A DNA stretch of 23,830 nucleotides from positions 1 to 23,830 of IMG/VR virus record IMGVR_UViG_3300031840_000185; one strand, written 5' to 3'. The notes under the pieces were generated by a model. The model was not told the DNA's origin. It ran no database searches and saw only the letters and a program-made list of their open reading frames with translations. Both the position numbers and the translations under genes were made by a program. Source of the stretch: a virus. Positions 1 to 23,830 of this stretch are shown here, piece after piece; within the stretch, counting starts at the first letter, position 1, and each line of letters begins with the position of its first letter.

Positions 1-31
1 GTGGTAAGTATCTTACATAGAAAAAACATAG

Positions 32-58
32 TACCCCCTATACCCCCTATAAGCCCTA
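32..58. repeat. Three tandem 9-bp repeats
   Basis: Two exact copies of TACCCCCTA (32-40, 41-49) are followed by a third related copy, TAAGCCCTA (50-58), with no spacer. They lie just past the stop of the HNH gene, in the short non-coding stretch at the left window edge. No hairpin or T-run is evident, so this is not an obvious terminator. The C-rich core resembles the TACCCC part of the repeats inside the replication initiator gene at 6203-6276. A binding site is possible, but the function is unknown. Confidence 0.6.
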
Positions 59-99
59 TTTATATGGTTTTTAGCCATTTACAGCTAATTATGGAATAT

Positions 100-447
100 T
101 TACCTATGTGCTACTCCTTGACGCTTTTTATGACACATTTGGCACAATATACGCAAATTACTTAAATCGTGTGAACCACCCTTAGATATAGGTATTATAT
201 GATCTACTTGTAGCTTGTTCTGGCTTGTTCCACCACTACCACACCACACGCAAAACCTTTGTTGTTGTCTTATTATCTTACGATTACGTCTATATTCTGC
301 GTCATCATACGGTCGTTTACCTTTGTTATAGCTGTATTTCTTTTTAGGTTTAATTATTGGCTTATGTTCTGCACAATAACTTCTACTGTTGTTGTCTGGT
401 GTAAATAACCTACGACACTTTAGACACGGTCTTTGATAACTGTTCAT
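100..447 (-). CDS. HNH endonuclease with N-terminal zinc finger
   Basis: A 115-residue protein. The C-terminal half is a clear HNH nuclease: CVWC (66-69), DHIIP (82-86) with the catalytic His83, Asn97, and CQMC-H (102-106), which forms the structural zinc site with the first Cys pair. The N-terminus has a second possible zinc site, C8-x2-C11 with C25 and H28. The middle (31-65) is very basic and probably contacts DNA. HNH enzymes nick or cut DNA, and in tailed phages they serve in packaging or as homing nucleases. This one is far from the expected terminase position, so its job is unclear. It is the last gene before the left edge and follows the adenine methyltransferase after a 38-nt gap. 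Confidence 0.85.
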   Translation of the reverse strand: MNSYQRPCLKCRRLFTPDNNSRSYCAEHKPIIKPKKKYSYNKGKRPYDDAEYRRNRKIIRQQQRFCVWCGSGGTSQNKLQVDHIIPISKGGSHDLSNLRILCQMCHKKRQGVAHR

Positions 448-485
448 TTGTTAGTTCTTCATCTAAGTCATCTAATATTACTTCA

Positions 486-986
486 TCAAATATCATTACG
501 AATATTGTAACCTAAACCTGATTGTTCTATTGCTTGTATAGCTTTGTCGCCACAACCTATTAATAAACTTCCAGTACTACCTTGTTTTGCTTGTACTTTG
601 CCTTTATAAAACGCTAATCTACCTTTTACAAAACATAATATATCTGCCTTTGTTGCGTAATCGTGAAACCAACGTGTATCTGTTCTAGCAAATACTAATG
701 CAATACCGTTTCCGTGTTCTATAAGTTTCTCTAACCATAATCCAGTATCTTTGCCATAAGGTGGATTACACCACACAAATCCATACCAATCTTGTTTTAA
801 ACCGTCTAATTCTTTGTGGTAATGATTTTCTGCTGGTACCCACGGTACGCCACCTTTAGGTGCTGCAACATCTAAATCAAATGTTGTATTTAAACTTTTA
901 AATAATTCTGGTGGCGTGTACCACTCATTTGATTGAACTATGCCACCGGGGTTTTCATACCAAGTACCATTTTGTTTTTGATCCAT
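486..986 (-). CDS. Phage DNA N6-adenine methyltransferase (Dam-like)
   Basis: A 166-residue protein of the phage N6-adenine methyltransferase family (PF05869 type). Visible signatures are EWYTPPELF (21-29), the SAM-binding strand FDLDVAA (36-42) and the catalytic motif NPPYG (74-78), followed by the family's ALVFART and GRLAFYKG strands. It would transfer a methyl group from SAM to adenine N6 in the phage DNA, usually to block host restriction. No partner endonuclease is visible, so it is a solitary enzyme. It sits between the WhiB-like gene and the HNH gene in a compact run of late-positioned genes. The length is normal for the family. Its target sequence cannot be read from the protein. Confidence 0.85.
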   Translation of the reverse strand: MDQKQNGTWYENPGGIVQSNEWYTPPELFKSLNTTFDLDVAAPKGGVPWVPAENHYHKELDGLKQDWYGFVWCNPPYGKDTGLWLEKLIEHGNGIALVFARTDTRWFHDYATKADILCFVKGRLAFYKGKVQAKQGSTGSLLIGCGDKAIQAIEQSGLGYNIRNDI

Positions 987-998
987 TTCACAACTTTG

Positions 999-1655
999 TT
1001 ATTTTAATTCTACCCTTTTGTTTTGTTTTTGTTGCCATAACTCTAAATTCTTTCTTGTACACGCTTTACACCAGCTTGTTTTACCACCAATGCCTTGTGG
1101 TCTTTTACTAAACTCTTGTGCAATCTTTCTTTCACCACATTTAGTGCAGCATTTACTTACCAGCTGTCCATAGCTATCAAACTCTGGTCTTGATTTGCTT
1201 GGTTTCTCACGATCTAATAATTTATCTACTTGCTTGTTGTTTTGTATATCTATATGACAACTAACGCATATATGACTTTTTGCACCCCAGTTTTCGTTAT
1301 CACTTGCAAATCCACGTGTCTTTCTATTGCAACGCAAACAACGTTTCTTTTTTAACTTACCGTGGTAATCAAATTCAGCTTCAATAATATCTAATGTTGT
1401 AAATGTTTCTTGCATTGTCTTTAGTAAGTCCTTTGGTGGTTTTGTTTTAAATCTACGTCTAACACGTTCTGGTAAGCAATATAAACCATATTCCAAGTCT
1501 TGATCTAACGCATATTCCAAGCAATCTATGTTAACTGGACATTGTTTACATATTGTGTGGGTTTCCCAATATTGTTTATCGGTACGTTTATCTGTACCGG
1601 GGAAGAATAGATTTATCGGCATACTGTTACATAACGCCCTGTTTTGCCACGTCAT
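999..1655 (-). CDS. WhiB-like regulator fused to two zinc-ribbon modules
   Basis: A 218-residue protein. Residues 1-70 are a WhiB domain: C9 plus the C36-x2-C39-x5-C45 cluster (ICKQCPVNIDC) would hold a [4Fe-4S] cluster, followed by LEYAL and an ERVRRRF basic end. The family's G[VI]WGG turn is changed to GLYCL (57-61), adding a fifth Cys. WhiB proteins are transcription regulators that bind the primary sigma factor in Actinobacteria. Residues about 92-202 hold two similar modules, each starting EFD-x2-G-x-L and carrying two CxxC pairs (C106/C109 with C130/C133; C170/C173 with C196/C199). These look like zinc ribbons that could bind DNA or RNA polymerase. Usual phage WhiB proteins are about 80-110 residues, so the extension is unusual. 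The start ATG lacks a good ribosome site. Tandem operator-like dyads lie upstream. Confidence 0.8.
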   Translation of the reverse strand: MTWQNRALCNSMPINLFFPGTDKRTDKQYWETHTICKQCPVNIDCLEYALDQDLEYGLYCLPERVRRRFKTKPPKDLLKTMQETFTTLDIIEAEFDYHGKLKKKRCLRCNRKTRGFASDNENWGAKSHICVSCHIDIQNNKQVDKLLDREKPSKSRPEFDSYGQLVSKCCTKCGERKIAQEFSKRPQGIGGKTSWCKACTRKNLELWQQKQNKRVELK

Positions 1656-1713
1656 ATACTAACAATAACAATATTTTAGAAATTTACACTTTACCTTATA
1701 AATTTATATTATG

Positions 1714-1761
1714 CTAAGTTTGGCTTAGTGGGTATGTTCTAAGTTTGACTTAGTTAGTATG
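1714..1761. promoter_or_regulatory. Two tandem operator-like dyads upstream of the WhiB-like gene
   Basis: Two 23-bp direct copies, spaced 25 bp apart (1714-1736 and 1739-1761), differ at about three positions. Each contains an inverted repeat: CTAAG-TTTGG-CTTAG in the first and CTAAGT-TTG-ACTTAG in the second. The pair lies 60-105 bp upstream of the WhiB-like start, and the second copy overlaps the stop codon of the small Cys protein gene. This is the usual layout of a dimeric regulator site. An AT-rich stretch suitable for a promoter follows on the minus strand, but I cannot assign a -35/-10 pair. The regulator is unknown. Confidence 0.55.
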
Positions 1762-1896
1762 TAGTTTGCAGTAGTCTGTATATGTAAGGTACTTCATATT
1801 AGTTTTTTTGTTTGTACCTAAACCCCTTATTACTGGTCTTTTACAATCTTCAGCATTACATCTTTCTATATACTGATTAGTGTAATAGTTTGGCAT
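1750..1896 (-). CDS. Small Cys-rich protein, probable zinc finger
   Basis: A 48-residue ORF with a strong ribosome site (AAAAGGAG, 6 nt before ATG), which argues that it is translated. Four candidate metal ligands are visible: C13 and C18 in RCNAEDC, and C43 and H46 near the end in YCKLH. The rest is polar and basic. Small proteins of this pattern are common in phage genomes and usually of unknown role; nucleic-acid or polymerase binding is the obvious guess. Its stop lies inside the second operator-like dyad of the WhiB-like gene, so the two are closely linked, possibly in one transcript. Confidence 0.65.
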   Translation of the reverse strand: MPNYYTNQYIERCNAEDCKRPVIRGLGTNKKTNMKYLTYTDYCKLHTN

Positions 1897-1944
1897 TGTT
1901 TACTCCTTTTGTTTTGTACAGTACACACATTTTACTATAAATAT

Positions 1945-2337
1945 TTAATTGTGTGTATCGTTTTTTAATATTTCTTGCGTTTCTTTACTAACTTCAAACT
2001 TTAAACTATCAAGCACTTGATTAGATTGTGATGTAATTTCTTGATACGTTGTACTTAACAACATCAATACACTTTCACGTGGTAAAAAACGTTCTATTGC
2101 TAACCCAAGCTGTTTATAGTTTTGGTATTGAAATATTTGCATATCGTAGGTGTCATTGTCATTTAGTCGTATGCAGTATCTTGATTTAGTATGATCTAAC
2201 CAATTTATTGTGAAGTTCATACCACCTAAATGGCCATTTTTAACGTCTGGTTCTACTGGCTCTTTATCTTGTAGCCAATCGTTTAAACCCATAACATTTG
2301 TTACAAGTTCTTTTACGTCATCATAACCTGCGTTCAT
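1945..2337 (-). CDS. Hypothetical protein
   Basis: About 130 residues, soluble and acidic, with no motif I recognise. I prefer the ATG at 2337 because AAAGG lies 10 nt upstream; the in-frame ATG at 2346 leaves only one base after that site. The middle carries beta-strand-like segments (GGMNFTINWL, RYCIRL, YDMQIFQY). The C-terminal third is helical and polar. It is the first gene after the terminator at 2414-2455 and has a TATAAT box upstream, so it may open a separate transcript leading to the Cys protein and the WhiB-like gene. No function is proposed. Confidence 0.7.
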   Translation of the reverse strand: MNAGYDDVKELVTNVMGLNDWLQDKEPVEPDVKNGHLGGMNFTINWLDHTKSRYCIRLNDNDTYDMQIFQYQNYKQLGLAIERFLPRESVLMLLSTTYQEITSQSNQVLDSLKFEVSKETQEILKNDTHN

Positions 2338-2367
2338 ATCGCACATACCTTTAAGTCTATTGTATGA

Positions 2368-2373
2368 ATTATA
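2368..2373 (-). promoter_or_regulatory. Possible -10 box for the leftmost transcript
   Basis: A perfect TATAAT on the minus strand, about 31-36 nt before the preferred start of the next gene (2337) and just after the terminator at 2414-2455. The -35 region is poor (TAATGG at 17-bp spacing), so an activator might be needed. It is the only candidate start site for this segment. Confidence 0.35.
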
Positions 2374-2413
2374 GTAGTGGTGTATTTATCCCATTATTTT
2401 TGATATAGAAAGC

Positions 2414-2455
2414 AAAAAACCTACCTAACTGTATTTAGCAGACTTATGGTAGGTT
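2414..2455 (-). terminator. Rho-independent terminator of the early operon
   Basis: On the minus strand, AACCTACC (2455-2448) pairs with GGTAGGTT (2425-2418), an 8-bp stem with a 22-nt loop, followed directly by a T run (TTTTTT counting the stem end). It lies 13 nt past the stop of the 99-residue gene and ends the long operon that starts at 8014. Confidence 0.8.
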
Positions 2456-2467
2456 AATTGCTTCTTG

Positions 2468-2767
2468 TTATCTTACTTTATTTTCAATAACTGTTTTGTG
2501 ATCTAAACTATAATTGTAATAATGATTTATCTTAAATTCATCATACAATTCATCTTTTAGTTTATTATCATTGTAAATTTGATAAAGATAATATCTTGGT
2601 ATTGAATAACTTTGACCGTCTGCAAAAGTTATAACAACATTTTCATTTATTGTACCCCAATGCAAATTATCAAGTTCATTACCTTTAATGGTGCTATCTT
2701 TTTTACTCCAATCAATATCTAGTAATTTAGAATTGTTTGGAATTTTTGATAATAACTTAATATTCAT
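2468..2767 (-). CDS. Hypothetical protein
   Basis: A 99-residue protein with a strong ribosome site (GGAAAGGAG close before the ATG). I recognise no family. A beta-rich middle (VVITFADGQSYSIPRYYLY) looks like a small 'DNA-binding or clamp-like' fold seen in many short phage proteins, but that is weak. The C-terminus is rich in Tyr, Asn and Lys. It is the last gene of the operon, followed by the terminator, and overlaps nothing: its start is one base past the stop of the upstream gene. It is very AT-rich, like the neighbouring unknown gene. Confidence 0.7.
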   Translation of the reverse strand: MNIKLLSKIPNNSKLLDIDWSKKDSTIKGNELDNLHWGTINENVVITFADGQSYSIPRYYLYQIYNDNKLKDELYDEFKINHYYNYSLDHKTVIENKVR

Positions 2768-2768
2768 T

Positions 2769-3230: not shown

Positions 3231-3244
3231 GTTACGTTTTTTTG

Positions 3245-3640
3245 CTATCTTAAAATTTTTCCAAATTGTTCTAATAAATAACCTACTCGTTTTGGTATTG
3301 GTTCTTGTAGGTAAAACTCTGTTGTTTCTGGTTGCTTTCTAGTTTCCCAATTAAAGTTATAGCCGTTTATTGTAAGATCAGTTATATTCCACGCAATAAT
3401 TCTTGTTTTATATTCTGTAACGTAAATAAATAGCTTTTTATCTTTAGTTGCTTGTGTGTAGTTTTTATCATACTTGTATTTCTCTATTAGCCACGGATTG
3501 TATTCACGTTGCCTAGATTTTATTTCAATTAGGTAATTATCGTTGTAGCAATCATAATGTTCGTAAATGTTTGTTGTTTCTGTAAGCTGTCCAAATACAT
3601 CTAGTTGATTTAATTTATTAATTATTTCTCGTTGCTTCAT
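3245..3640 (-). CDS. Putative PD-(D/E)XK-type nuclease
   Basis: A 131-residue protein. The pattern D30...D34...LIEIKSR (37-43, E39-x-K41), followed by a Lys-rich helix around KYKYDKN (55-61), matches the core of the PD-(D/E)XK nuclease fold (acid, then E-x-K, then a Lys/Gln helix). The segment FIYVTEYKTRIIAWNI then gives the expected extra strands. If real, it would be a small Mg-dependent endonuclease or a resolvase or repair enzyme. Its start overlaps the glycosyltransferase stop by 23 nt, so the two are co-translated. It may attack unmodified DNA, but this is inference. The assignment rests on a short motif only. Confidence 0.5.
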   Translation of the reverse strand: MKQREIINKLNQLDVFGQLTETTNIYEHYDCYNDNYLIEIKSRQREYNPWLIEKYKYDKNYTQATKDKKLFIYVTEYKTRIIAWNITDLTINGYNFNWETRKQPETTEFYLQEPIPKRVGYLLEQFGKILR

Positions 3641-4466
3641 TTTTAATCAATGCTAACCCATAGTCATTATTTTCGTTTTTTAAATGTATGCCTTTTTTAA
3701 ATATTAAGTCATTGTCTGCAAATGGCTTATAATTTACTTGATGATGAAACCTGTTAAATTTTTTTGTTAATTTTACTACGTCTGGGTGTTGATCTACTAA
3801 ACTTTGTGCAAATTCTAACCTATTGTCTGTTTCGCTATATATATCAGCATTACCACCTTTTTGTGTTGATGTTGCACGTTTACCAATTAAAAAAGTTCTA
3901 AACAAAACAGTTACCCAACCGTCTTTTAAAATTCTTAATGATAAATCTGTATCTTCGTTGTACTTGCCACGCCACCTATGTTTAATTTTATTATTTTGTA
4001 AAATACACGAATAAACACGTGTATTAAAGTGTAATGGTGGTCTTGCTTCACTTGCTGGACAAAAAATACCATAGTGCATACCAGCTTGACCAATGTTTTC
4101 ATACCTATCTACAAAATGTTCAATAATTCTAAATGGTGTTGATGTTTTACACTTTATCTTTAAATTGTTATAAAAACGTTCAACGCTTTCAATGTTGTCG
4201 TCTAAAATCCAATGCCAATCAAAGCCATTATCAATACTATGTTGCCAAACAAAATTTCTTACTGGAACAGAACCTTGACCACGTTCACTAAAGTTTTCTG
4301 GTGCTTTAATTATATTTTTTTCATCAATGACATTTGCATAATCATTGTATTCTTTTGGCTCAACCACTATTTTGTAAGGTGTGTTTGTAAATTCCATAGT
4401 TTTTACTGTTTGTCGTCTTTCCCAACGACCTTTAGATATAATATAAATTGGATATTTAGGTTTCAT
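3618..4466 (-). CDS. TET-associated-type DNA glycosyltransferase (TAGT family)
   Basis: A 282-residue GT-A fold glycosyltransferase. I recognise the phage TAGT pattern: YPIYIISKGRW (5-15), IVVEPKEY (33-40), GQGSVPVRNFVW (63-74), the metal/sugar-nucleotide motif WILDDNI (86-92), and the EDTDLSLRIL block (171-180). Known members glycosylate 5-hydroxymethylcytosine, made from 5-methylcytosine by phage TET/JBP dioxygenases, giving hypermodified DNA that resists host nucleases. No dioxygenase or C5 methyltransferase is in this window, so either they lie elsewhere in the genome or the acceptor is another hydroxylated base. The gene overlaps the 84-residue gene upstream by 11 nt and the nuclease-like gene downstream by 23 nt, forming a tight cassette. 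Confidence 0.75.
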   Translation of the reverse strand: MKPKYPIYIISKGRWERRQTVKTMEFTNTPYKIVVEPKEYNDYANVIDEKNIIKAPENFSERGQGSVPVRNFVWQHSIDNGFDWHWILDDNIESVERFYNNLKIKCKTSTPFRIIEHFVDRYENIGQAGMHYGIFCPASEARPPLHFNTRVYSCILQNNKIKHRWRGKYNEDTDLSLRILKDGWVTVLFRTFLIGKRATSTQKGGNADIYSETDNRLEFAQSLVDQHPDVVKLTKKFNRFHHQVNYKPFADNDLIFKKGIHLKNENNDYGLALIKNEATRNN

Positions 4467-4710: not shown

Positions 4711-5179
4711 TTTGCCATTTCGCAATCCATTTGTCCGTATCTTCCCAACACCATTGGCTACTACTCCACGGTTTCCAATAATTATCCCTTGTGTGCATAT
4801 CTTGTACAAGTAATGCAGCTACTTGAATATTATAACGTGGAATAAACTGTGCATAGGTATTTCCAACTGGGTAATCCCAGTAAGGTATATCGTGTTTTTC
4901 TTTTACCCAACCCCACGTTCTTGGTATTGCTTGAAATAAGCCACTATCTTGATCTTGGTAGCGATATGCGTCTGCTTTATTGCGACTTTCACACCACATT
5001 ACTTTTACAGCTGTTTCTATGTTTTTTTCATCAAAATGTTCTACAAGTAATGTTGCATATTGATAACAAGTTTCTGGTACATAATTATCGCAATCAGTTA
5101 AATTTATAACTTCATCTGCAACGCCATAACCAAAATTATTTACAAGTAAAGCGTAAATTAATATGCACTTAGTTATCAA
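4703..5179 (-). CDS. Secreted lysozyme/transglycosylase-like protein (TTG start)
   Basis: A 158-residue protein starting at TTG (5179), which overlaps the upstream TGA. Residues 1-21 form a Sec signal peptide (K4, hydrophobic 6-20, cleavage near GVA-DE). The mature part has the lysozyme-like/SLT signature: MWCESR (61-66) with the likely catalytic E64, then SGLFQAIPRTW (79-89). The C-terminus is Trp-rich (KPWSSSQWCW). Four Cys (30, 38, 63, 144) could make disulfides, fitting an exported protein. It should cleave the glycan strand of peptidoglycan. It lies in the replication operon, far from the amidase/holin lysis pair, so it may act early on the wall or release host wall material, or it may be a virion protein. 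The role is uncertain. Confidence 0.75.
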   Translation of the reverse strand: MITKCILIYALLVNNFGYGVADEVINLTDCDNYVPETCYQYATLLVEHFDEKNIETAVKVMWCESRNKADAYRYQDQDSGLFQAIPRTWGWVKEKHDIPYWDYPVGNTYAQFIPRYNIQVAALLVQDMHTRDNYWKPWSSSQWCWEDTDKWIAKWQNE

Positions 5180-5868
5180 AATAAACCTATTTGTGTGTTA
5201 TTAATGCGTTCTGTTGCATAATCATAATATTCTTTTACAAGTTCTATGCCTATAAAATTACGATTTAACTTAACACAACTTACACCTGTTGTACCCATAC
5301 CCATAAACGGATCTAGTATAATTTCATTTTCTTGTGTAAAATTTTCTATTATATAATTTGATAATTCTTGTGGCATTACAGCACTATGATTTTTTAACTT
5401 TTCATTTTTACTAATTTTATTTATTGATACTAAATTTTTAATAAAATGTTTATTTGCTTCTACGTAAATATTATTTGTAAAAAATAAAATGTATTCAACA
5501 AAATTAGAAACTCTATGTTGTATTGAACTTGGTGTACCGTCTGGTTTATACCATATAATATTTTGTTGTAATTTATCTGCAAAATGTCCCATTATTCTAT
5601 AAACTTCTTTTTTATTTGAATAATTAGGTTGTATATTCCAAATTACATACTTTTTAGATACTCTTAATAATTCATCTATTATTTCAACACACCAATCAAA
5701 ATAATTTGGATTGTTATCTTCAAAAAATTCATATTTTGCTTTCATATCACTTTTTGTTTTATTGTTAGATCTGCCAATGTTGTACGGTGGACTTGTAAAT
5801 ACATAATCTACGCTGTTGTCATCAAATTCTTTTAAAGCTTGTAAGCAATCTGCATTAATCAGTTTCAT
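5176..5868 (-). CDS. Beta-class DNA methyltransferase (N4-cytosine or N6-adenine)
   Basis: A 230-residue SAM-dependent DNA methyltransferase with motifs in the beta-class order: catalytic motif IV TSPPYNIG (25-32) first, then HSAVMPQEL (161-169), motif I DPFMGMGTTG (186-195) and FIGIEL (205-210). SPPY is most typical of N4-cytosine enzymes, but N6-adenine enzymes with this variant exist. The target-recognition part is short (about 35-150). No restriction enzyme is adjacent, so it is probably a solitary protective or regulatory methylase. It overlaps the initiator gene upstream by 14 nt and the secreted lysozyme-like gene downstream by 4 nt. Its start ATG lies inside the end of the initiator gene. 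Confidence 0.85.
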   Translation of the reverse strand: MKLINADCLQALKEFDDNSVDYVFTSPPYNIGRSNNKTKSDMKAKYEFFEDNNPNYFDWCVEIIDELLRVSKKYVIWNIQPNYSNKKEVYRIMGHFADKLQQNIIWYKPDGTPSSIQHRVSNFVEYILFFTNNIYVEANKHFIKNLVSINKISKNEKLKNHSAVMPQELSNYIIENFTQENEIILDPFMGMGTTGVSCVKLNRNFIGIELVKEYYDYATERINNTQIGLF

Positions 5869-6577
5869 TTGCCCAATCCTTTAGTGCTTTTTGATCCATA
5901 GCTTTATTTACATCTTTATTTGTTGCAGTTCTTGCACCTTTGACCAAATGCACGTTATTTACTATGCCTTGTGGTGTCAATGCACCCACGCCATACGTTT
6001 TAACTAGGTTTTCTGCAATAACTGGTATATCTGTAGGTTCATACCCGGCTTCGTGTAGTTGTTTTCCTGCTGCGTAAATCTTACCCCATTGGTTTTTAGT
6101 AGGTTTTTCATATCCACATACTTTTTGTATATTATTTACATAAAGTTCTTGTATTTCTCTAGAATATAGTTCATTGGATATAGTTCTATTGAGTATAGTT
6201 TGTGTCAAGTTTTCTATACCCCTACCTGTAACGTTTTCTTTACCCCCCCTGTCAAGTTTTCTTGACACCGGGGTAAGTTTTAAGACATAAAGATTGCTTG
6301 TTTGTTCGCCTTTATCCTTAAATCGCTGCTTTACTTCTATAACGCCTTTTTCTTCTAACCCTTGTAAAGCTGTTATTGTGCTTTGTCTTGATCTATTTAC
6401 ATCTTTAGCTAATTTACTTACACTTGGCCAACACTCTTTAGTTTTATTGTCTGCATATTGTCCTAGTGCAACATACACCATTAATTCAAGTGGTTTTAGT
6501 ATTTCTAGTAACCAATGTGGTGTAATCGTAAATGTAAATTCGTATTCACTACCAATAAACTCATCTTCTTTTGTCAT
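5855..6577 (-). CDS. Winged-helix replication initiator
   Basis: A 240-residue protein. Residues about 20-100 are a winged helix of the HTH_36 type: helix TPHWLLEILKPLELMVYVAL, then CWPSVSKLAKDVNRSRQSTITALQ with the recognition helix near 61-72, and the wing ending NLYVLKL. Residues 101-135 form a charged, flexible linker. Residues about 136-240 are a second helical domain resembling DnaD/phage O-type helicase-recruiting domains (the GxGxLTPQGI block near 196-204). Such proteins bind the origin and load the helicase. The linker-coding DNA holds iteron-like repeats, as in lambda O, which supports the role. It is followed by the methyltransferase and preceded by a loader-like gene, overlapping each by 14-17 nt. 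Confidence 0.75.
   Translation of the reverse strand: MTKEDEFIGSEYEFTFTITPHWLLEILKPLELMVYVALGQYADNKTKECWPSVSKLAKDVNRSRQSTITALQGLEEKGVIEVKQRFKDKGEQTSNLYVLKLTPVSRKLDRGGKENVTGRGIENLTQTILNRTISNELYSREIQELYVNNIQKVCGYEKPTKNQWGKIYAAGKQLHEAGYEPTDIPVIAENLVKTYGVGALTPQGIVNNVHLVKGARTATNKDVNKAMDQKALKDWANETD
6203..6276. repeat. Iteron-like repeats and dyad inside the initiator gene (candidate origin)
   Basis: Three direct repeats of the form TGTnAnGTTTTCT start at 6203, 6227 and 6250 (spacing 24 and 23 bp); the first two run on into TATACCCC or TTACCCC. The third is part of a perfect 7-bp inverted repeat, TGTCAAG-TTTT-CTTGACA (6250-6267), extended outward by TACCCC (6241-6246) and GGGGTA (6270-6275). Spacing near two helical turns and position in the linker of a winged-helix initiator match the lambda O/ori arrangement. 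AT-rich DNA lies on the low-coordinate side (about 6120-6200). Confidence 0.65.
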
Positions 6578-7055
6578 TTATATCTGTTCCAATCCCATAA
6601 CGCCACCCCATTGTATTTGCTTCACTATAACTTAAACCAACATACGGTTCAAATAGTTTTCGTTGCCAATCACGTAATCCACCAAATTTGTATAAATGTT
6701 GTGTCTTATAAAACACAGCTTCAGCAAACGTTTTATAACCCTGCATTAATAAATAGGATTGTAAGCTACTTGGTGGATCTACTTGCTTATCCTCTAATGC
6801 TTTTTGTTCACGTATTGTTTGTGCTTTTTCTGTAAACGCTTGTGTCTGGAACTCTTTGCATAATCTTTTAATCTTTGACCAATCTAAAAATTCATTACCA
6901 CTTTCAAAATAATCTAATAAGACTTTACCAAATACGTCATCATCATATATTTCAAAATCTTTATATAACGATTTTACTGAATACTCACCAAGCTGTGCGT
7001 TTGGCCACCTAACTTTTAACCAATTTATCCAATATAAAAATTCATCTTTTTGCAT
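6561..7055 (-). CDS. Putative helicase loader / replication accessory protein
   Basis: A 164-residue helical protein. The N-terminal 65 residues (WINWLKVRWPNAQL ... SLYKDFE ... FLDWSKIKRLCKEF) have the spacing of the small helical domain of phage helicase loader/inhibitor proteins of the G39P type: an aromatic helix, a 'Y..FE' helix, then 'W..I...' before a polar tail. The rest is polar and ends with a GWRYGIGTD segment. Its position directly upstream of the initiator (17-nt overlap) fits a helicase-loading partner. Similarity is by pattern only; no catalytic motif or Walker motif is present, so it is not an AAA+ DnaC-type loader. Confidence 0.45.
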   Translation of the reverse strand: MQKDEFLYWINWLKVRWPNAQLGEYSVKSLYKDFEIYDDDVFGKVLLDYFESGNEFLDWSKIKRLCKEFQTQAFTEKAQTIREQKALEDKQVDPPSSLQSYLLMQGYKTFAEAVFYKTQHLYKFGGLRDWQRKLFEPYVGLSYSEANTMGWRYGIGTDINDKRR

Positions 7056-7164
7056 TTTCTTTTAACTCCATTTCTAATAAAGCAACCATTTTCTTCACTT
7101 CTTTCAACTCTTGGTCTGTTGTGATGTGTCGTAACAGTTGCTTTATGTTCTCTAATACTGTCAT
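7042..7164 (-). CDS. Small helical protein
   Basis: A 40-residue ORF that fills the gap between two genes: its ATG overlaps the upstream TAA (TAATG) and its end overlaps the next ATG by 14 nt, the layout of translational coupling. The sequence is one amphipathic helix with heptad-like Leu/Val spacing (LENIKQLL, ELKEVKKMVALLEMEL). It may be a small coiled-coil subunit. No family is recognised. Confidence 0.6.
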   Translation of the reverse strand: MTVLENIKQLLRHITTDQELKEVKKMVALLEMELKENAKR

Positions 7165-7622
7165 TAAAACGGTGGTTTTAAATCCTCTAAATCAACGACT
7201 TCTGTTGGTGTTTGTTCTGCATTAAACTTTTTTTCTGCATTATCAAACTCGTCATCATTCCAACTAGCCCACGGAAAACCTTTACCAGTATCGCAACCGT
7301 CTTTATTTGCACACTTCCACAATGGTTGTTTACCTTGTGCAGTTTCACGATTGTCCCAAACTTTTGAACCACAACTTGGACATTTAGGTTCAAACTTAGG
7401 TTTATCACCAACTGTTACTTCCTGTGTATCGTTTGTATATTTATAGGTTACTTTTTGTTCTTCTATGTAACCGTCTTTTAAATAATTAAAAAGATTGTTT
7501 GATATGTTTCTAATAACTTCTAGTTGGTTAGCTATATCGTTATTAGGATCAAACTTATCTTTTGTAAGTTCTGTTGCTGCTTTTAAAGCAACTTGTTTCA
7601 TTATTATTTCACTTTGTGTCAT
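7164..7622 (-). CDS. Zinc-ribbon protein with SSB-like C-terminal tip
   Basis: A 152-residue protein with a strong ribosome site (AAGGAG). The N-terminal 50 residues are helical (MKQVALKAATELT). A zinc ribbon follows: CPSC (81-84), then C104 and C110. The C-terminus is acidic and ends DLEDLKPPF, closely like the acidic tip of single-strand binding proteins (actinobacterial SSB ends in PPF), the site that recruits replication and repair proteins. No OB fold can be seen. It may therefore be an ssDNA-binding or replisome-recruiting factor, and it sits at the head of the replication genes. The functional reading is inference; the zinc ribbon and the C-terminal residues are directly visible. Confidence 0.7.
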   Translation of the reverse strand: MTQSEIIMKQVALKAATELTKDKFDPNNDIANQLEVIRNISNNLFNYLKDGYIEEQKVTYKYTNDTQEVTVGDKPKFEPKCPSCGSKVWDNRETAQGKQPLWKCANKDGCDTGKGFPWASWNDDEFDNAEKKFNAEQTPTEVVDLEDLKPPF

Positions 7623-7635
7623 TTATTACACTCCT

Positions 7636-7812
7636 TTATTCTTCTTCGCCTAAATTTTCCCAACAAGCGTTACATACGCTGTGGTCATCATCTTGTTCTG
7701 TTATTTCTTTTTCGCAGAACATACAATGCCCACTATAAGGTTTTGCTACGACAATACCGTTGCCTACTTGTTTATCCCAAAATTTATCTAATGGTTCACT
7801 TAGTTGTGTCAT
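7636..7812 (-). CDS. Small zinc-finger protein
   Basis: A 58-residue ORF. H29, C30 and C33 (HCMFC) with C47 and C50 (CNAC) make a four-Cys zinc site, with an acidic loop between (TEQDDD) and an acidic end (EEE). It overlaps the membrane-protein gene upstream by 17 nt and ends 14 nt before the next start, within a continuous operon. This type of mini treble-clef or zinc-ribbon protein is frequent in phages, and the partner is unknown. Confidence 0.65.
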   Translation of the reverse strand: MTQLSEPLDKFWDKQVGNGIVVAKPYSGHCMFCEKEITEQDDDHSVCNACWENLGEEE

Positions 7813-8014
7813 TACTAAACATATTATCTGCGTCTAATACTTCACCGTCTTCAAGTCGTTGCCAAAAATCTACATTAGGTTTATTTTCAACATCTTCATA
7901 ACCAAGCAATTTTGCAATAAATACTGCAACTTCGCCTAATAATGCACCTATTAGAAATATGGCAACAAAACCACCTAACACAATAAATACATCTGGATTA
8001 CTATACTTGTCCAT
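7796..8014 (-). CDS. Small membrane protein, first gene of the early operon
   Basis: A 72-residue protein with a strong ribosome site (AAAAAGGAG) just after a near-consensus promoter. Residues 9-37 are hydrophobic (VFIVLGGFVAIFLIGALL and the following stretch), giving one long or two short membrane segments; the C-terminal half is acidic and soluble (DVENKPNVDFWQRLEDGE), probably on the cytoplasmic side. Being the first gene to be made suggests a takeover or exclusion function at the host membrane, but nothing in the sequence identifies one. Confidence 0.7.
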   Translation of the reverse strand: MDKYSNPDVFIVLGGFVAIFLIGALLGEVAVFIAKLLGYEDVENKPNVDFWQRLEDGEVLDADNMFSNDTTK

Positions 8015-8041
8015 TTGTTCACTCCTTTTTGTCTTGTCTGT

Positions 8042-8069
8042 ATTATATATAAATTATTTACAATGTGAA
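8042..8069 (-). promoter_or_regulatory. Strong sigma-70-type promoter of the early operon
   Basis: On the minus strand, TTCACA (8069-8064, one mismatch to TTGACA) and a perfect TATAAT (8047-8042) are 16 bp apart. Transcription would start near 8035, about 20 nt before the first ATG (8014), with an AGGAG ribosome site between. It follows the terminator at 8133-8164, so it starts a separate transcript. Confidence 0.75.
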
Positions 8070-8132
8070 GTGTTTACAAAAAAAAGTATGTTATTATTAG
8101 ATTTCTAACACTCCATTTGTTAGTACGTATAG

Positions 8133-8164
8133 AAAAGACCGGGTTTTTATTAACCCGGTCTTTT
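8133..8164 (-). terminator. Strong rho-independent terminator after the lysis genes
   Basis: A perfect 13-bp inverted repeat (8133-8145 with 8152-8164; core AGACCGGGTT) with a 6-nt loop, and T-runs on both strands outside or at the end of the stem. It lies 25 nt past the holin stop and separates the late transcript from the early promoter. As only minus-strand genes are present, it mainly serves the minus strand, although the plus-strand T-run is the better one. Confidence 0.85.
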
Positions 8165-8189
8165 TATTTCCTGCTGCGATTGGGCTGCG

Positions 8190-8411
8190 TTAGAAAGTTT
8201 CTTTCGGCTTGTACTGTTCTAGAGCGTGTTGCATTACTGTTATAAAACTTGTTAAAAATGCTACACCTACAAGCTGTATTATTTCTGCGTCAATAATACC
8301 TGTACTGTTAGCTAACCACAATGAAATAGCTGATTGCAAACCAGTTCTAAATGCTTTTGCAAACATAAATTTCCAGTACGCTTTCCAATCTTTTTTATTT
8401 ACTTTACTCAA
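8190..8411 (-). CDS. Holin (r1t-like; TTG start)
   Basis: A 73-residue protein. The start is TTG at 8411 with AAGGAAAGG 6 nt upstream, inside the end of the amidase gene (8-nt overlap). It has a charged N-terminus (KKDWKAYWKFMFAKAFRT), two membrane segments (about 22-38 and 44-62, the second containing VGVAFLTSFITVM) and a polar C-terminal tail. Size, topology and position right after the endolysin match the r1t-type holins common in actinobacterial phages. It would form inner-membrane lesions that end the infection and release the endolysin. Confidence 0.8.
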   Translation of the reverse strand: MSKVNKKDWKAYWKFMFAKAFRTGLQSAISLWLANSTGIIDAEIIQLVGVAFLTSFITVMQHALEQYKPKETF

Positions 8412-9186
8412 TGGTAACCTTTCCTTTTTTAATTTTAGCTCTATTAACTTCTACCAACTTTGCATAAGTCATATTGCCAACAATACCGTCTGGTTTTAAT
8501 TTATATTTCTTTTGAAATAAAACCACAGCTGCTAAAGTTTTTCCACCAAAATCACCGTCTATTTGTAATTGTGTTTTGTTTATCTTGTTAAGCATTATTT
8601 GTATTTCTTCTACTTGGCTACCACTATCGCCTTTTTTAATGAGCATTGATCTAGTTACTTCTTGTACAACTTCTTGTGCTTTTGTTTCTTCTGGCACTAT
8701 GGTTAATCTATTTTCAATCCATTTACTCCAATTATCACCCGGACACGTAGTAGATTTAAAACTTCTATGTGGTCTAATATCGCCACCGACTTCTTTCCAT
8801 AGTTCTTTTACTGTCATTACAGCTTCTTTACTTGGCATATCATCTGGTTTAGATCCACCAAGCCAACACACAGCTACGTAATGCTTATTGTTATAGTTTA
8901 TTTCTTGTCTGTTGTTGCCACCTTGTGCTGCCGATCTATTTCCAAAACCTCTAGCTTCGTATAAATTACCACTATCACCTACACAAAAATTATATGCTAT
9001 ATCGTTCCAACCCCGGTCGTTTTGATGTAGTGCCTGTATCTGTCGTACTTGTGCCATTTCTTCATCTACGCTTAATGCTTTTGGATAAGCTGACCAATGT
9101 ACAACTAAACCTTTTACTTCGCCTAATTTACTAAATCTTGATTTATTGGGTTTTGCACCCCACATTTCTCTAGTTATTATCTTCAT
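8404..9186 (-). CDS. N-acetylmuramoyl-L-alanine amidase endolysin
   Basis: A 260-residue protein with two domains. Residues 1-160 are an Amidase_2/PGRP domain: zinc ligands H30 (VVHWSA), H140 (IRPHRS) and C148 (TTCPGD), with Y65 in WNDIAYNF as the expected catalytic Tyr. Residues about 180-245 are a PG_binding_1 domain (LIKKGDSGSQVEEIQ ... IDGDFGGKT ... FQKKYKLKPDGIVG). It cuts the bond between muramic acid and the stem peptide. There is no signal peptide, so it depends on the holin gene that overlaps its end. It starts one base after the metallophosphoesterase stop. Confidence 0.92.
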   Translation of the reverse strand: MKIITREMWGAKPNKSRFSKLGEVKGLVVHWSAYPKALSVDEEMAQVRQIQALHQNDRGWNDIAYNFCVGDSGNLYEARGFGNRSAAQGGNNRQEINYNNKHYVAVCWLGGSKPDDMPSKEAVMTVKELWKEVGGDIRPHRSFKSTTCPGDNWSKWIENRLTIVPEETKAQEVVQEVTRSMLIKKGDSGSQVEEIQIMLNKINKTQLQIDGDFGGKTLAAVVLFQKKYKLKPDGIVGNMTYAKLVEVNRAKIKKGKVTIE

Positions 9187-9187
9187 A

Positions 9188-10420
9188 TCAATATATATTA
9201 ATGTCTGACCACTTACGACCGTCTTTGTTGTGCATTAAAAATGCTGTAACACCGTGTAACGCTGATCCACCACCCTGTTCACTAAACCATTGTTGTCCAG
9301 ATAAATCATAAGCTGTTGAACACAATACAAGTCTATGATCTACTTCTACAGAAAAATGATGATGAAAATGACCAACTAGCAATACATCTGTATCGTATAA
9401 TTCTGCCTTAGTTTTGTTTGAACTCATCTTTGTAAACCAATTAACTACCTTTTGTTGTGCATTACCACCACCACGTGCTTGATGACCGTGTGCTATTGAT
9501 AAAACTGTATTAGGTAACACTTGTACACTTGTAGTTAGATAATTGTCTGGTATATACCAGTTGATATGTTTGAAAGCTGGTGATTTACTAAATATTTCTT
9601 GTACGCTATCAAACAATTCTGCGTCCATATTATCGCCAAAACTTGTATTAGCTTTACCACCTTGTCTGCGTTCACCGTGATTTCCCATAGTTGCCATAAC
9701 GATTACATCAGTAAACAATGGTGCAAGTATTTCTATAGTCTTAGTAAGCATACGTCTAGCTATACGCATTTGTTGTCTATTATCAAATTCTTGTTCATAT
9801 AAACCCATTGGGTAGAAGTTATTACTACAATTCTCTACTAAATCACCTAAACCACAAATTACTAATTTATCTATTGTGTATTTTTTGCGTAGGTTTTTTA
9901 GATCATCTTTAATTGCATAAATACTATCAAAATACTGCAATACCGATTGTTCTGTATTCTTTTTGCCTACTTGCCAATCAGCAAGACTAACAACCATACA
10001 ACTGTCGTGTACTTTTACTTTTGTTTTAGGTTTAGGTTTAATTTTAGATACACGATTTGCTAGTTCTTGTATGTCTTTGTCTGGTGTGCTGTTTTCACGA
10101 CTATATAAATTTGTTTTAAAATAATAAAACTTCGTAGGTTCACTTTCCCCGGTCTTTGGGTTCTTACCCCAAGCGTCCCACACTCTAAAGTTTATTGGTT
10201 CATCTTTTTTTATATAAAATGTTTTACTTGCACCTTTACCAATCCAATAATCTATCCACTCGTCCCAATCTAAATCGCCACGATCTGCTAAACCTTTTGT
10301 AGTTATCTGTCCTTTGTTGCCGTTCCACTCAACACCCGGTTTAAATCCACGTGGATAATCTTCTTTTGGCTTTTGTTCAGCTTGTTTGACTTCTATAAAT
10401 TCATTAAAGTTCAAGTTCAT
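9188..10420 (-). CDS. Calcineurin-like metallophosphoesterase
   Basis: A 410-residue protein. After a roughly 135-residue N-terminal region (WNGNKGQITTKGL, DWDEWIDYWIG), the metal-binding motifs appear in order: LADWQVG (D148-x-Q150, where most family members have D-x-H), GLGDLVE (D193), MGNHGE (N247-H248), HGH (310-312) and GHFHHH (350-355). This is the calcineurin/SbcD-type nuclease or phosphodiesterase fold. In actinophages such proteins are often called metallophosphoesterase and may act on DNA ends during packaging or host DNA degradation. The start overlaps the 90-residue helical gene by 17 nt, suggesting a functional pair. The Q substitution at the first metal site is notable but occurs in phage members. 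Confidence 0.85.
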   Translation of the reverse strand: MNLNFNEFIEVKQAEQKPKEDYPRGFKPGVEWNGNKGQITTKGLADRGDLDWDEWIDYWIGKGASKTFYIKKDEPINFRVWDAWGKNPKTGESEPTKFYYFKTNLYSRENSTPDKDIQELANRVSKIKPKPKTKVKVHDSCMVVSLADWQVGKKNTEQSVLQYFDSIYAIKDDLKNLRKKYTIDKLVICGLGDLVENCSNNFYPMGLYEQEFDNRQQMRIARRMLTKTIEILAPLFTDVIVMATMGNHGERRQGGKANTSFGDNMDAELFDSVQEIFSKSPAFKHINWYIPDNYLTTSVQVLPNTVLSIAHGHQARGGGNAQQKVVNWFTKMSSNKTKAELYDTDVLLVGHFHHHFSVEVDHRLVLCSTAYDLSGQQWFSEQGGGSALHGVTAFLMHNKDGRKWSDINIY

Positions 10421-16706: not shown

Positions 16707-17936
16707 TTAATAACCTAACTTGTCTGTATCTAACTTACCAAATAATGCGTTATCTAGTCGCATAAACGCTTGTACGTCTGCATTAGATAGTTTATATGCA
16801 CAAGTAAATATATTTGGTGTGATATTGTAGCTAATACTATCAATTATTTCATTTGATGTAATTTGTGCTGGACTACCACTACCGGGTGGTGTAAGTTCTA
16901 CTTTGACCACATCACCCACTTCACGATCTAATATACTGTTCTGGTTTCCTGTTGTAGCTTCTGTTAAATCAACAACTAAGTTATCAAATCTAATTAATGC
17001 GTCTTTAAATTTACCAAGTAAAAAGTTTGCTGCGTCTAATACTTCACTATCGCTATTGTTATATAAACCTGTTCTACTAAGTGTTCTAATTAAGTATTTA
17101 CCTTGTGAAGCTGTATCTTCAACAGTTTGTGTTGATCCGGATATACGTTGTAAAGAAATTATGTTATGTATTTCATTGTCATCATTTATATAATCTACAC
17201 GTATGTATGGCACATCACTACCGTCATCACTAAACGTTGCTGCTGGTGTGCTTGGGAACGTTGTATGACGTGATTTAAACGTAATCTTGCCGTCTTTAGA
17301 CATAAACAGTAATCCATTTTCGCTACGTTCAATATTCTGCAAAACAGATAACGTGTTTTCACTAAGACTACTTAATGATTGCATTGTAGATATTCCTGTT
17401 TCAATACTTCTATCTGCACCGAACTTAATGTTTGCATTGTCTAATACATTACCTACTAACGTGCCACTATCTGTGCTACTAAAAGAAGCATTTATCAAGC
17501 TAGTGTTTGATAACTTCATAAATGCGTCTGCACCAATAAAATCTGCAAATGAATTGTTTTTATCTGGATAACTTAAATTAATATCGGTTACGAAACCTAC
17601 AAATAAATCTTTGTATGTACTGCCACCGTCTGTAGTTGCGTCAATATGTATAGCTATCAATGGTTCAATACCCGGTGAATATGGACTTGATGTATTAGTG
17701 TTTTCGTATTTACGTGCATTATTTAAAAGTCTTACTGAACACGTACCAGTTTTAAATGTGTCTAAATCTCTAGATCTACCGCGACTTATAGATACACTTT
17801 GTACATCACTTGTAACGTCTGTAAGAGGTGTTGCACCACCTAGTTCTGCACTATCTAAAACACCACGCACTAAGTCGTCTAATGTAAATGTATTTTGTGT
17901 AAAACCTATACGAACACGTACTGTTGGTTGTGCCAT
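16707..17936 (-). CDS. Minor tail protein / distal tail component
   Basis: A 409-residue protein directly after the tape measure; its start overlaps that stop (TAATG). The N-terminal part VRVRIGFTQNTFTLDDL and SVSISRGRSRDLDTFKTGTCSVRLLN (48-73) is a pattern common in actinophage minor tail proteins: a beta-domain followed by 'RGR...G...V.L.N...'. The middle has a LFVGFVTDI strand; the end (ISYNITPNIFTCAYKLS) is beta as well. It is probably the baseplate hub or distal tail protein connecting tube and fibres. Confidence 0.75.
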   Translation of the reverse strand: MAQPTVRVRIGFTQNTFTLDDLVRGVLDSAELGGATPLTDVTSDVQSVSISRGRSRDLDTFKTGTCSVRLLNNARKYENTNTSSPYSPGIEPLIAIHIDATTDGGSTYKDLFVGFVTDINLSYPDKNNSFADFIGADAFMKLSNTSLINASFSSTDSGTLVGNVLDNANIKFGADRSIETGISTMQSLSSLSENTLSVLQNIERSENGLLFMSKDGKITFKSRHTTFPSTPAATFSDDGSDVPYIRVDYINDDNEIHNIISLQRISGSTQTVEDTASQGKYLIRTLSRTGLYNNSDSEVLDAANFLLGKFKDALIRFDNLVVDLTEATTGNQNSILDREVGDVVKVELTPPGSGSPAQITSNEIIDSISYNITPNIFTCAYKLSNADVQAFMRLDNALFGKLDTDKLGY

Positions 17937-19327
17937 TACAATATATCTATTCTTGCAGCACCACCGTTTTGACGCTTAAATTCTCTTGCACCTCTAGCAA
18001 ATAAATCACTAGCTTCTTGATCTGTTGTAATTGGTGCATAGTTGTTGATTGTTATTCCTGCTGGTTGTGTTGGTGTAAACTGTGTGGCACTTGTTGCTGC
18101 CGTTGCTAATAAACCTGTTGCTGTACGTTGTGCGTCTATGTCATCTGCCGAAACAATAGGTGCTATATCTTTTTCACCTAATCCAAAATCTACTTCACTA
18201 AACTTACGCAGTTTTGGTATATCTATCTTTATACCAATCTTGCCTAATATTCTTTGTGCTTTTTCAGCAAAACTATTTAACTTGTCTGCAAACTTATTAA
18301 ATCCACGAATAATTTTATTAATCATATCTTCAAAATTCTTTGGTAAGTTTTCTAAAAATGGTGCAAGAAATTTATTAGCAAATTCTGTCATCTTTTTAAA
18401 TGCTGGTGCTAATGCTTGAAGCAGTAAAGTTACTATTGCGATAATTGGTGGTGCTAATAATGCAATCATTTCTCCAATAGATGATAAAAATGGTGCTACA
18501 CCTTTTATAGCGTCTATTAATGACGGCCCGATTTGCTGTACCATATCTACAATTACTGGTAGTAACTGTTCTGCAATAGGTAATAACTCTTGACCAAGTT
18601 GTACTTTTAATTCTTTAACTTGTGCTTGTGCTTTCCTAGATTTATTTGCAAAACTATCCTGCGTTCTATTTAGATCGCCCTGCTGTACTGTTGTTTTCTT
18701 TAATAACAACTCATAAGTAGCTAATGCACGTTCTTGCTTAGTAAGTTCATTTCTTGAACTTTTACCTGTCATTTCAAACGCTTTTGTTTCTACTTCAGCT
18801 TGTGAAATAGCAATACCATACGTTTTAAGACTTTCGTTTTCACCAAGTAACGATTTAGTAAATGCTTCTAATACTGGTTGAGCACCACCTTGTACGTTAG
18901 CAAAAGAAGCAACATCACCAGCTAATGCAGCAAGTTTTGTTCCTAGATCACCAGACGCTTCAGCTGTAAAGTCAATACCTTGTAATACTGCACCTGTGTT
19001 TGTTAGTAGTCCCTCTAATTCAAATGCAGCTAAACCAGCTTTATTTGCAAATTCCTCTACGAAACCAGATACTTGTGGTAATGCGTCCCCAAATGTTGTT
19101 TCAAATGCAGAACGTGCTTCACCTGCGTCTGAAGCTAAATTAACTAAATCTTTACCAACTGTTGCTGCTGCTGCACCAATACCTGCAATACCAAATGCTG
19201 CTGCTTTACCTATTCCAGCTGCAACACTTCCTAAACCTTGTAATGCTTTTTGTCCTTTTGTTAATGACTTAACAAACTGGTCGGTTTTACCGATTATTGC
19301 TATTGATACTTTTTTTTCAAATGCCAT
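17936..19327 (-). CDS. Tail tape measure protein
   Basis: A 463-residue protein, the largest of the tail module apart from the surface protein. The Ala/Gly-rich membrane-like N-terminal segment (GSVAAGIGKAAAFGIAGIGA), the AFETTFGDALPQV and ALAGDVASFANV blocks, and a hydrophobic middle (IGEMIALLAPPIIAIVTLLLQ) followed by a helical tail are typical of siphovirus tape measures. At about 1.5 angstrom per residue it would set a short tail of roughly 70 nm (family rule, not measured here). Position right after the chaperones supports the call. Confidence 0.9.
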   Translation of the reverse strand: MAFEKKVSIAIIGKTDQFVKSLTKGQKALQGLGSVAAGIGKAAAFGIAGIGAAAATVGKDLVNLASDAGEARSAFETTFGDALPQVSGFVEEFANKAGLAAFELEGLLTNTGAVLQGIDFTAEASGDLGTKLAALAGDVASFANVQGGAQPVLEAFTKSLLGENESLKTYGIAISQAEVETKAFEMTGKSSRNELTKQERALATYELLLKKTTVQQGDLNRTQDSFANKSRKAQAQVKELKVQLGQELLPIAEQLLPVIVDMVQQIGPSLIDAIKGVAPFLSSIGEMIALLAPPIIAIVTLLLQALAPAFKKMTEFANKFLAPFLENLPKNFEDMINKIIRGFNKFADKLNSFAEKAQRILGKIGIKIDIPKLRKFSEVDFGLGEKDIAPIVSADDIDAQRTATGLLATAATSATQFTPTQPAGITINNYAPITTDQEASDLFARGAREFKRQNGGAARIDIL

Positions 19328-22729: not shown

Positions 22730-22735
22730 AAGATA

Positions 22736-22801
22736 TTATCTACCTTTCTTTCGGCCTTTACCTTTGCCACCTTTCATTTTTTTACCGTAATGTTTTGGCA
22801 T
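22736..22801 (-). CDS. Tiny very basic protein
   Basis: A 21-residue ORF (opening MPKHYGKKMKGG, all Gly/Lys/Arg after that). Its ATG shares one base with the upstream TAA (TAATG). Mini-proteins of the same look, 'MPKHYGKKMKGGK', recur beside capsid genes in marine and freshwater phages, which supports real translation. It is very likely a DNA- or capsid-interacting basic peptide. Too short to prove from sequence alone. Confidence 0.5.
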   Translation of the reverse strand: MPKHYGKKMKGGKGKGRKKGR

Positions 22802-22980
22802 TACTTCTTTTTTTCTACTTTTTTTTCAGCTTTAGGTTTTGCAGTTTTTGTTTCAACTGATCCACCAGCTTTTTTAATTGCGTCTTTAACTGCTTTAGCA
22901 CGTTCTGCCTTTCCATAGAGTTCATAACCCTTAAGTTCTTCTTTAAGTGCTGCTATTAATTCTTTGTCTTGTTTTGCCAT
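22801..22980 (-). CDS. Small helical capsid-region protein
   Basis: A 59-residue ORF with AGGAAAG close before the ATG. It opens AKQDKELIAALKEEL and continues GYELYGKAERAKAVKDAIKK, a helical pair with a 'GYE.YGk.eRak.Vk.ai.k' motif widespread in actinophage genes next to the major capsid protein, then ends in a Lys/Ala-rich tail. Its role is unknown: possibly a minor capsid or head protein. Confidence 0.75.
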   Translation of the reverse strand: MAKQDKELIAALKEELKGYELYGKAERAKAVKDAIKKAGGSVETKTAKPKAEKKVEKKK

Positions 22981-23000
22981 AATTCTTTCCTAAATGGTCT

Positions 23001-23024
23001 GGTGTGTTAGTTGCCCAACACACC
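23001..23024 (-). other. Hairpin after the capsid gene
   Basis: An 8-bp perfect stem, GGTGTGTT with AACACACC, around an 8-nt loop, 15 nt past the capsid stop. No T-run follows, so it is not a typical terminator. It may partly terminate transcription or protect the 3' end of capsid mRNA, giving a higher capsid level than that of genes downstream. Confidence 0.5.
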
Positions 23025-23039
23025 AAAACCATAATTTAA

Positions 23040-23830
23040 TTAGAAACTAGGTGTAATTAAACCTGTTCCTTGTATTTTTGTAATTCCGGTTGGGTATCTT
23101 CCAGAAGCAAAAGCAACATAACCATAAACAACCATTTTAGTTGTTAATGATCCTGCGTTTGTTTCTTCAAACTTCAACTGGAATAAATTATCTTCAAATA
23201 AGATATGGTCATCAGCTTTTACCACATAGATTTGGTCTTGGTCTGAACCACCACCGTCTGTTGTAGTAATGTTAGCGTCTGTGATTACTGGAAGTCCTAA
23301 TAGGTTTCCAACAACATTTCCATAAGCTGCTGCGTCGCCAATACCCATAGCATTGTCTGGATTATTTCCAGCTGGTAATACCAATGGTCTGTTTGAACTA
23401 TCAACACCAGCAGTAAAGAAGCCCCAGCGTCTTGGGTGCATAATTATTGCTTGTGCTGGTGCAAATCTGTTTGCATTAACTTTTTGCACAGCGTCTGCTA
23501 ATTTTGGATATGCTTCAGCAACAGTTGGACTTGCGTCTGTATATGTTACTGTGTTAATTCCAGATACGTTTCTAATTCCTAATGGTTGTCCAGAAGAACC
23601 AGAACCGTCAATCATCAAACTATCTAATTTTGTATAATAAGCTGCTACCAAGTCTTGGAAAATAATGTTTTCCATTGAGAAACCCGGTTGTCCACCACGC
23701 TCAAGTGCTTGACGTGAAACGTCTTGCTGACCTGCAACAGTATCAACATTAACTGTTAATAAGGTGTCGTCCATATCGGTTTCTTGTACAGCTGAATTTT
23801 CAGAAGCCTGTTCGGCTGCTGCTGATCCAG
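23040..23830 (-). CDS. Major capsid protein, HK97 fold (N-terminus cut by window edge)
   Basis: At least 262 residues are visible; the frame stays open through the right edge, so the start is outside. An internal Met at 23774 is not the start. The visible N-terminal part has AGQQDVSRQALERG, the classic HK97-type capsid segment, followed by a helix (FQDLVAAYYTKLDSLMIDGSG), then TYTDASPTVAEAYPKLADAV, MHPRRWGFF, the 'LLGLPVITDANI' loop and a C-terminal VYGYVAFASGRYP segment. It builds the icosahedral shell. Portal, protease and terminase should lie beyond the right edge. Confidence 0.92.
   Translation of the reverse strand, partial: GSAAAEQASENSAVQETDMDDTLLTVNVDTVAGQQDVSRQALERGGQPGFSMENIIFQDLVAAYYTKLDSLMIDGSGSSGQPLGIRNVSGINTVTYTDASPTVAEAYPKLADAVQKVNANRFAPAQAIIMHPRRWGFFTAGVDSSNRPLVLPAGNNPDNAMGIGDAAAYGNVVGNLLGLPVITDANITTTDGGGSDQDQIYVVKADDHILFEDNLFQLKFEETNAGSLTTKMVVYGYVAFASGRYPTGITKIQGTGLITPSF

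Follow-up and report, generated by a model that had tools for sequence, protein, structure and literature searches.

Near-complete elimination of type II restriction sites from phage DNA, but not from the DNA of the host, has been described for non-temperate double-stranded DNA phages (Rusinov et al., 2018; PMC6286503). Classic examples of site loss are phage T7, which avoids GATC and CCNGG, and Staphylococcus phage K, which avoids GATC; in coliphages with a hydroxymethylase, the avoidance is relaxed where cytosine is modified (PMC6286503). Here, we describe a related case in the virus record IMGVR_UViG_3300031840_000185, of which a stretch of 23,830 bases was analysed (in the following, the window). 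It contains no GANTC site and has lost many other short words besides. Very probably, many type II restriction enzymes circulate in the host population, Candidatus Actinomarina or a close relative, and the phage has shed their recognition sites, for the most part through synonymous changes.

The window resembles the systems above in kind but differs from them in extent. Its clade purges far more words, including asymmetric ones, and is associated with an uncultured marine host, whereas T7 and phage K have lost few words and retain GANTC. A literature search yielded no direct precedent for GANTC avoidance in phages. Since the choice between purging sites and modifying DNA is already known from coliphages (PMC6286503), we do not consider the window a new kind of case; its novelty lies in its scale, in the clade of its host and in a predicted route via 5-methylcytosine, the modification genes of the window's relatives being of a predicted dCMP-methylase type rather than hydroxymethylases. 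The closest described phage is the sequence associated with the single cell AG-919-G14, one of the first Actinomarinales phages obtained from single cells, with 29 kb and 35.5% G+C (PMC7771536). It shares with the window its clade, a WhiB protein, a G+C content of about 35% and the lack of GANTC, TCGA and GCGC, but keeps some CATG and CCGC sites; the available part of that publication makes no mention of site avoidance or DNA modification. Actinomarina is uncultured and has very small genomes, and its phage-defence repertoire is barely known. The present finding supplies predicted specificities of host enzymes and a candidate cytosine-modification cassette, both open to direct checking.

Lost words and the codons that avoid them

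By exact counting, GAATC, GATTC, GACTC and GAGTC each occur zero times in the window, as do GCGC, CATG and TCGA. The initial annotation, made by eye, had already reported the absence of GANTC and, less firmly, of GCGC, and both observations hold. Its expectation of 70 GANTC sites matches base composition (about 70) but ignores dinucleotide bias: a first-order Markov model predicts 29.6 sites, synonymous-codon shuffles 29.3 (lowest of 200, 16) and shuffles that also preserve codon-boundary dinucleotides 20.8 (lowest of 60, 13), with an overall codon-shuffle range of 21–33. For the other three words, the expectations are 10–20 (GCGC, close to the annotated 15), 21–91 (CATG) and 10–23 (TCGA). GATC, described in the annotation as occurring dozens of times, is found 52 times, against 41–45 expected from shuffles, and GTAC, AGCT, TGCA, CTAG and ACGT are likewise at or near expectation, so a general avoidance of palindromes is not the cause. 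Counts and codon shuffles further identify GCATC, CCATC, CASTG, GTSAC, CCWGG, GGATG, GAAGG, CATCG, GCNNGC and CCGC as nearly absent. The loss is therefore not specific to GANTC, as had been proposed; that word is one among many, and the finding had been understated. Words lying this far below a model that preserves codons and composition are what is seen in restriction-site avoidance.

It is extremely improbable that GANTC was lost by chance through composition, codon usage or protein constraint. A low G+C content and a strong strand skew do reduce the expected number from 70 to some 21–33, but amino-acid constraint, which the initial annotation had named as a way in which a codon shuffle could yield zero, brings no shuffle below 13. 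Moreover, the proteins provide ample opportunity for the site. All genes of the window lie on the minus strand, and a TCN serine codon following an Asp or Glu codon would create GANTC; in this context, all 44 serine codons of the window are AGY and none is TCN, whereas the TCN:AGY ratio elsewhere is 205:192 (p 1.5e-13). Likewise, proline before GG is encoded by CCW in 0 and by CCS in 9 cases (elsewhere 192:25), CCA and CCT being the codons that would create CCWGG, and histidine before G by CAT in 0 and by CAC in 20 cases (elsewhere 61:25), CAT followed by G being CATG. Codon biases of comparable size were not seen in these contexts in host genes. The sites in the window have thus been lost mostly through synonymous choice.

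Mutation without selection, for instance deamination at methylated sites, is only slightly more credible than chance. GCGC and TCGA do contain CpG and would be prone to deamination when methylated, but CATG and GANTC do not contain it, the step from a TCN to an AGY serine codon takes two base changes, and the CpG-containing palindromes ACGT and CCGG have both been retained. In pooled relatives, asymmetric words such as GCATC, GGATG, CCATC, GTCAC, CACTG, CCTTC and GTCTC, among others, are depleted in both orientations. This indicates double-stranded DNA, rather than mRNA or codon pairs, as the target, again as in restriction-site avoidance.

Probable host and scale of the purge

Several genes tie the window to actinobacterial phages. 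It encodes a WhiB-domain protein, an actinobacterial phage marker (999..1655, minus strand; PF02467, E 1.2e-12), and an HK97-type major capsid protein that is cut by the contig end (23040..23774, minus strand; PF05065) and whose nearest named phages, by tblastn, infect Mycobacterium (46%). Its tail tape-measure-like protein (17936..19327, minus strand) served as the query for gathering relatives, and an alignment scan of a genome collection with it led to a 29.7 kb contig (L078) of the Candidatus Actinomarina single cell AG-919-G14, with a match of 54%. The phage of that cell has 0 GANTC sites where 55 are expected, whereas the DNA of the cell itself has 681 against 749 in 220 kb sampled (0.91). 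Across host chromosomes the ratio is 0.91–0.97, and the avoidance is thus not common to phage and host. We infer that the phage represented by the window infects Candidatus Actinomarina or a close relative of it.

An alphaproteobacterial host, in which GANTC would be lost because of CcrM cell-cycle methylation and not because of restriction, is accordingly very unlikely. What speaks for it is general background and no tool result: CcrM, to which the initial annotation had pointed, methylates GANTC, and the alphaproteobacterial SAR11 group is abundant in the sea. The WhiB protein, the mycobacteriophage-like capsid and the relative in an Actinomarina single-cell genome place the clade with an actinobacterium, however, and many unrelated words have been lost alongside GANTC. 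Our survey of 42 Actinomarina-family genomes found no RAMA domain (PF18755), no HinfI- or CcrM-type homologue and no match above cut-off to the CcrM equivalog NF050803, a cut-off that Caulobacter does not reach either. The pelagiphage HTVC010P, for its part, keeps GANTC (51 against 76 expected). In its first 30 kb (L194), this phage shows a word loss of its own relative to codon shuffles, comprising CTNAG (0/57), ACGG (0/37), ACGT (1/31) and CATCG (0/22).

To gauge the scale of the purge, we compared 8,712 candidate words with codon shuffles in an iterative search in which each accepted word was masked. The number of independent depleted words was 6 in the window, 15 in the phage of the Actinomarina single cell and at least 45, palindromic as well as asymmetric, in the close relatives of group A (pooled 249 kb); two other groups of relatives, B and D, yielded 28 and 25. 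In host DNA, two samples of 220 kb and 140 kb (360 kb together) contained no such word by the same search. Word counts of single genomes are limited by sequence length: single contigs of 16–30 kb gave 3–15 words, and six comparison phages gave 1–7, with the GATC loss already described for T7 and phage K being recovered. GANTC is among the most universally purged sites in the clade, falling below 0.15 of expectation in 72 of 87 low-G+C relatives and to zero in 64 of these. With so many words purged, no single HinfI-type enzyme, as invoked in the initial annotation, explains the genome.

The groups differ in some of the words they avoid. Most relative contigs (42; groups A and D) have lost CCWGG and kept CCGG, whereas nine (groups B and C) show the reverse pattern; in two of these nine, GATC has also been lost. 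We rejected the idea that the methyltransferases encoded by the phages account for these CCWGG/CCGG and GATC differences, for want of a consistent match. That the phage's own methyltransferases create or require the absence of the words is very improbable more generally. The window does encode two DNA methyltransferases, and its relatives encode diverse ones. The first is a beta-class enzyme that may protect the phage's own sites (5176..5868, minus strand; PF01555, E 7e-37; PDB neighbours 5hfj, DpnA, and 6pbd, CcrM), the second a phage Dam-like N6-adenine methyltransferase (486..986, minus strand; PF05869, E 5.6e-15), of which the relative G020 holds a 90% identical copy. Yet the set of avoided words does not follow which methyltransferases a phage encodes, PF01555 genes being present in groups whose CCWGG/CCGG patterns are opposite, and no phage endonuclease was found paired with these enzymes. 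Short open reading frames (213–233 amino acids) in G020 (14643-14960), G079, G078 and G002 (28300-28533) match part of the C5-methyltransferase profile only and are possible half-enzymes.

One further contig, G021 (L183+L184, IMGVR_UViG_3300021962_000594), holds 21, 35 and 23 GANTC, CATG and TCGA sites in positions 1-8000, against 0, 0 and 1 in positions 8001-25424. As the left 8 kb, in which site numbers are normal, holds phage genes in the opposite orientation, we discarded the reading of this step as a prophage junction in favour of a probable chimera or mosaic. Chimeric contigs might be recognisable by their site density.

Relatives with normal site counts

The clade also includes phages that are not purged, among them two groups with capsids 87–89% identical to that of the window. 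Their site counts are normal although they encode proteins 80–90% identical to those of purged phages, which also argues against chance. For instance, the 28.3 kb contig G074 contains 32 GANTC (50 expected), 55 TCGA and 38 GCGC sites. Where such sites fall on residues identical between the phages, they are kept in 0/19 cases in the window, 0/42 in G002, 0/43 in G016, 0/41 in G078 and 3/43 in the AG-919-G14 phage, against about one third of the control palindromes of G074 in purged phages; in non-purged relatives, retention does not differ significantly between purged-class sites and control palindromes. On the capsid tree, the purge state changed at least twice, on the starred branches.

In G074, a cassette encoding a MazG-like pyrophosphohydrolase, a thymidylate-synthase-like (TS-like) protein and DHFR lies between the exonuclease and the replication genes. 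The equivalent interval of the window, from the replication-initiation protein to the exonuclease (5855..10420, minus strand), is a contiguous series of open reading frames, and tblastn searches for the MazG, TS-like and DHFR genes were negative in the window. A scan with the TS-like protein of G074 returned four further cassette contigs, none of them purged. Among the 25 contigs with early regions that we compared, all five with the cassette are non-purged, with 4.4–6.2 sites per kb (GANTC, CATG, TCGA and GCGC), whereas 19 of the 20 without it are purged, with at most two GANTC each. The exception, L258, is cut: its first gene is the one that directly follows the cassette position in L299; with L258 excluded (5/5 against 19/19), the association has a Fisher p of 2.4e-5. 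GATC is in excess in L299, L300, L301 and L179+L180, reaching 1.4–2.0 times the codon-shuffle expectation in cassette contigs.

The closest described counterpart of the cassette is that of the Pamexvirus / Xanthomonas phage XP12 group (PMC9206674, PMC8670742), which also combines MazG-like, TS-like and DHFR genes and whose TS-like proteins are 35–39% identical to those described here. All cytosines of XP12 are 5-methylcytosine, and the DNA of phage AXL1 withstands most enzymes (PMC9206674). The nearest named relatives are phages of Xanthomonas, Stenotrophomonas and Pseudomonas; two of them were examined and have TS, dCMP deaminase and DHFR genes, in one case with an annotated pyrophosphohydrolase directly before them. 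Unlike in the XP12 group, the cassette is present in relatives of the window rather than in the window itself, and TS and DHFR are not separated by a dCMP deaminase gene. The catalytic Cys (C156) is invariant in the five TS-like proteins, all of which have, as in the XP12 group, Asp at the position of thymidylate synthase Asn177 (D188, aligned with Asp179 of T4 gp42), and an Asn-to-Asp change converts thymidylate synthase to a dCMP methylase (PMC8670742). Three residues before the catalytic Cys, they have Asn and not the Asp or Glu of hydroxymethylases; as D145N inactivates the T4 hydroxymethylase (PMC6400193), this favours a methylase. Given the Asp, the adjacent DHFR and the likeness to the XP12 group, our best guess from these alignments is that the cassette makes 5-methylcytosine DNA.

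The non-purged relatives might instead infect hosts that restrict little, the cassette being incidental. We regard this as unlikely, though as the most serious of the alternatives: the host species is known for one contig only, and the non-purged groups differ in early genes, such as an amidase. On the other hand, the cassette occurs in two diverged lineages, both non-purged, and a corresponding link, there with hydroxymethylase, is known from coliphages (PMC6286503). Moreover, a few words are missing from non-purged phages as well, notably GAACC and GCATC. The latter, among the words most strongly depleted in the purged phages, has observed/expected counts of 1/38 in G074, 0/14 in L298 and 1/18 in L300. 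Some enzymes thus seem to exert selection on the non-purged phages too, and at least one of these seems to be met by phages of both types. On balance, we lean towards the view that the Actinomarina phage clade switches between two exclusive, genome-wide answers to diverse restriction, word clearing or cassette-modified cytosine. On this view, the list of cleared words could be read as an account of the restriction enzymes present among uncultured hosts. Purged phages beside non-purged sisters provide a natural experiment on the strength and diversity of restriction in the open sea.

Restriction in the Actinomarina population

If the host population carries many type II restriction enzymes, a phage genome would lose their sites, and an incoming site-free genome would escape cutting whichever enzyme a cell carries. 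Escape from host restriction, which the initial annotation had proposed as a long-term process, is the best explanation, as the loss is synonymous, affects both strands, is absent from the host and weakens in relatives with predicted DNA modification. Its strongest support comes from the non-purged close relatives, including all five cassette contigs. Host restriction is thus the probable selecting agent, and an enzyme cutting GANTC is presumably present in the host population.

The restriction pool of the surveyed host genomes is diverse. C5 methyltransferases occur in 9 of the 42, D12 methyltransferases in 7, and HsdM-type matches above cut-off in 5. Partner endonucleases are of the NgoPII (GGCC), Bsp6I (GCNGC) and MvaI/BcnI (CCWGG or CCSGG) types, of which only the last fits an avoided word; an EcoRII-C match among the partner proteins is weak, and PADLOC yielded little on them. 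A conserved beta-class DNA methyltransferase of some 280 amino acids (L106, 1483-2313), apparently solitary, is also encoded in most of the genomes and may be a core epigenetic regulator in Actinomarina. In one Actinomarina genome (L165, 647-1360), a DarT1-associated NADAR antitoxin adjoins a D12 methyltransferase and a GHKL ATPase, likely a defence island.

Several points weigh against restriction escape. No GANTC-specific enzyme was found in the 42 genomes, and two of the endonuclease types present, for GGCC and GCNGC, target words that remain in this phage. The avoided words number in the dozens, against roughly one restriction-modification system seen in each host genome, so that diversity across the population must be assumed. 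Partial depletions, such as those of GGAG and GAGC, may have other causes, for example Shine-Dalgarno avoidance. Finally, the cassette comparison depends on five cassette contigs, of which L300 and L301 are near-copies.

Among the remaining genes of the window, which has no close DNA match in named phages, one encodes a glycosyltransferase resembling TET-associated and beta-glucosyl-HMC-alpha-glucosyltransferases (3618..4466, minus strand; PF20691, E 2.5e-41; phrog_842). No such gene turned up in the other contigs with early regions that were compared, and neither a TET protein nor a hydroxymethylase was found in the window as its partner. Two small HNH proteins, at 100-447 and 13751-14023, resemble the HNH part of IscB.

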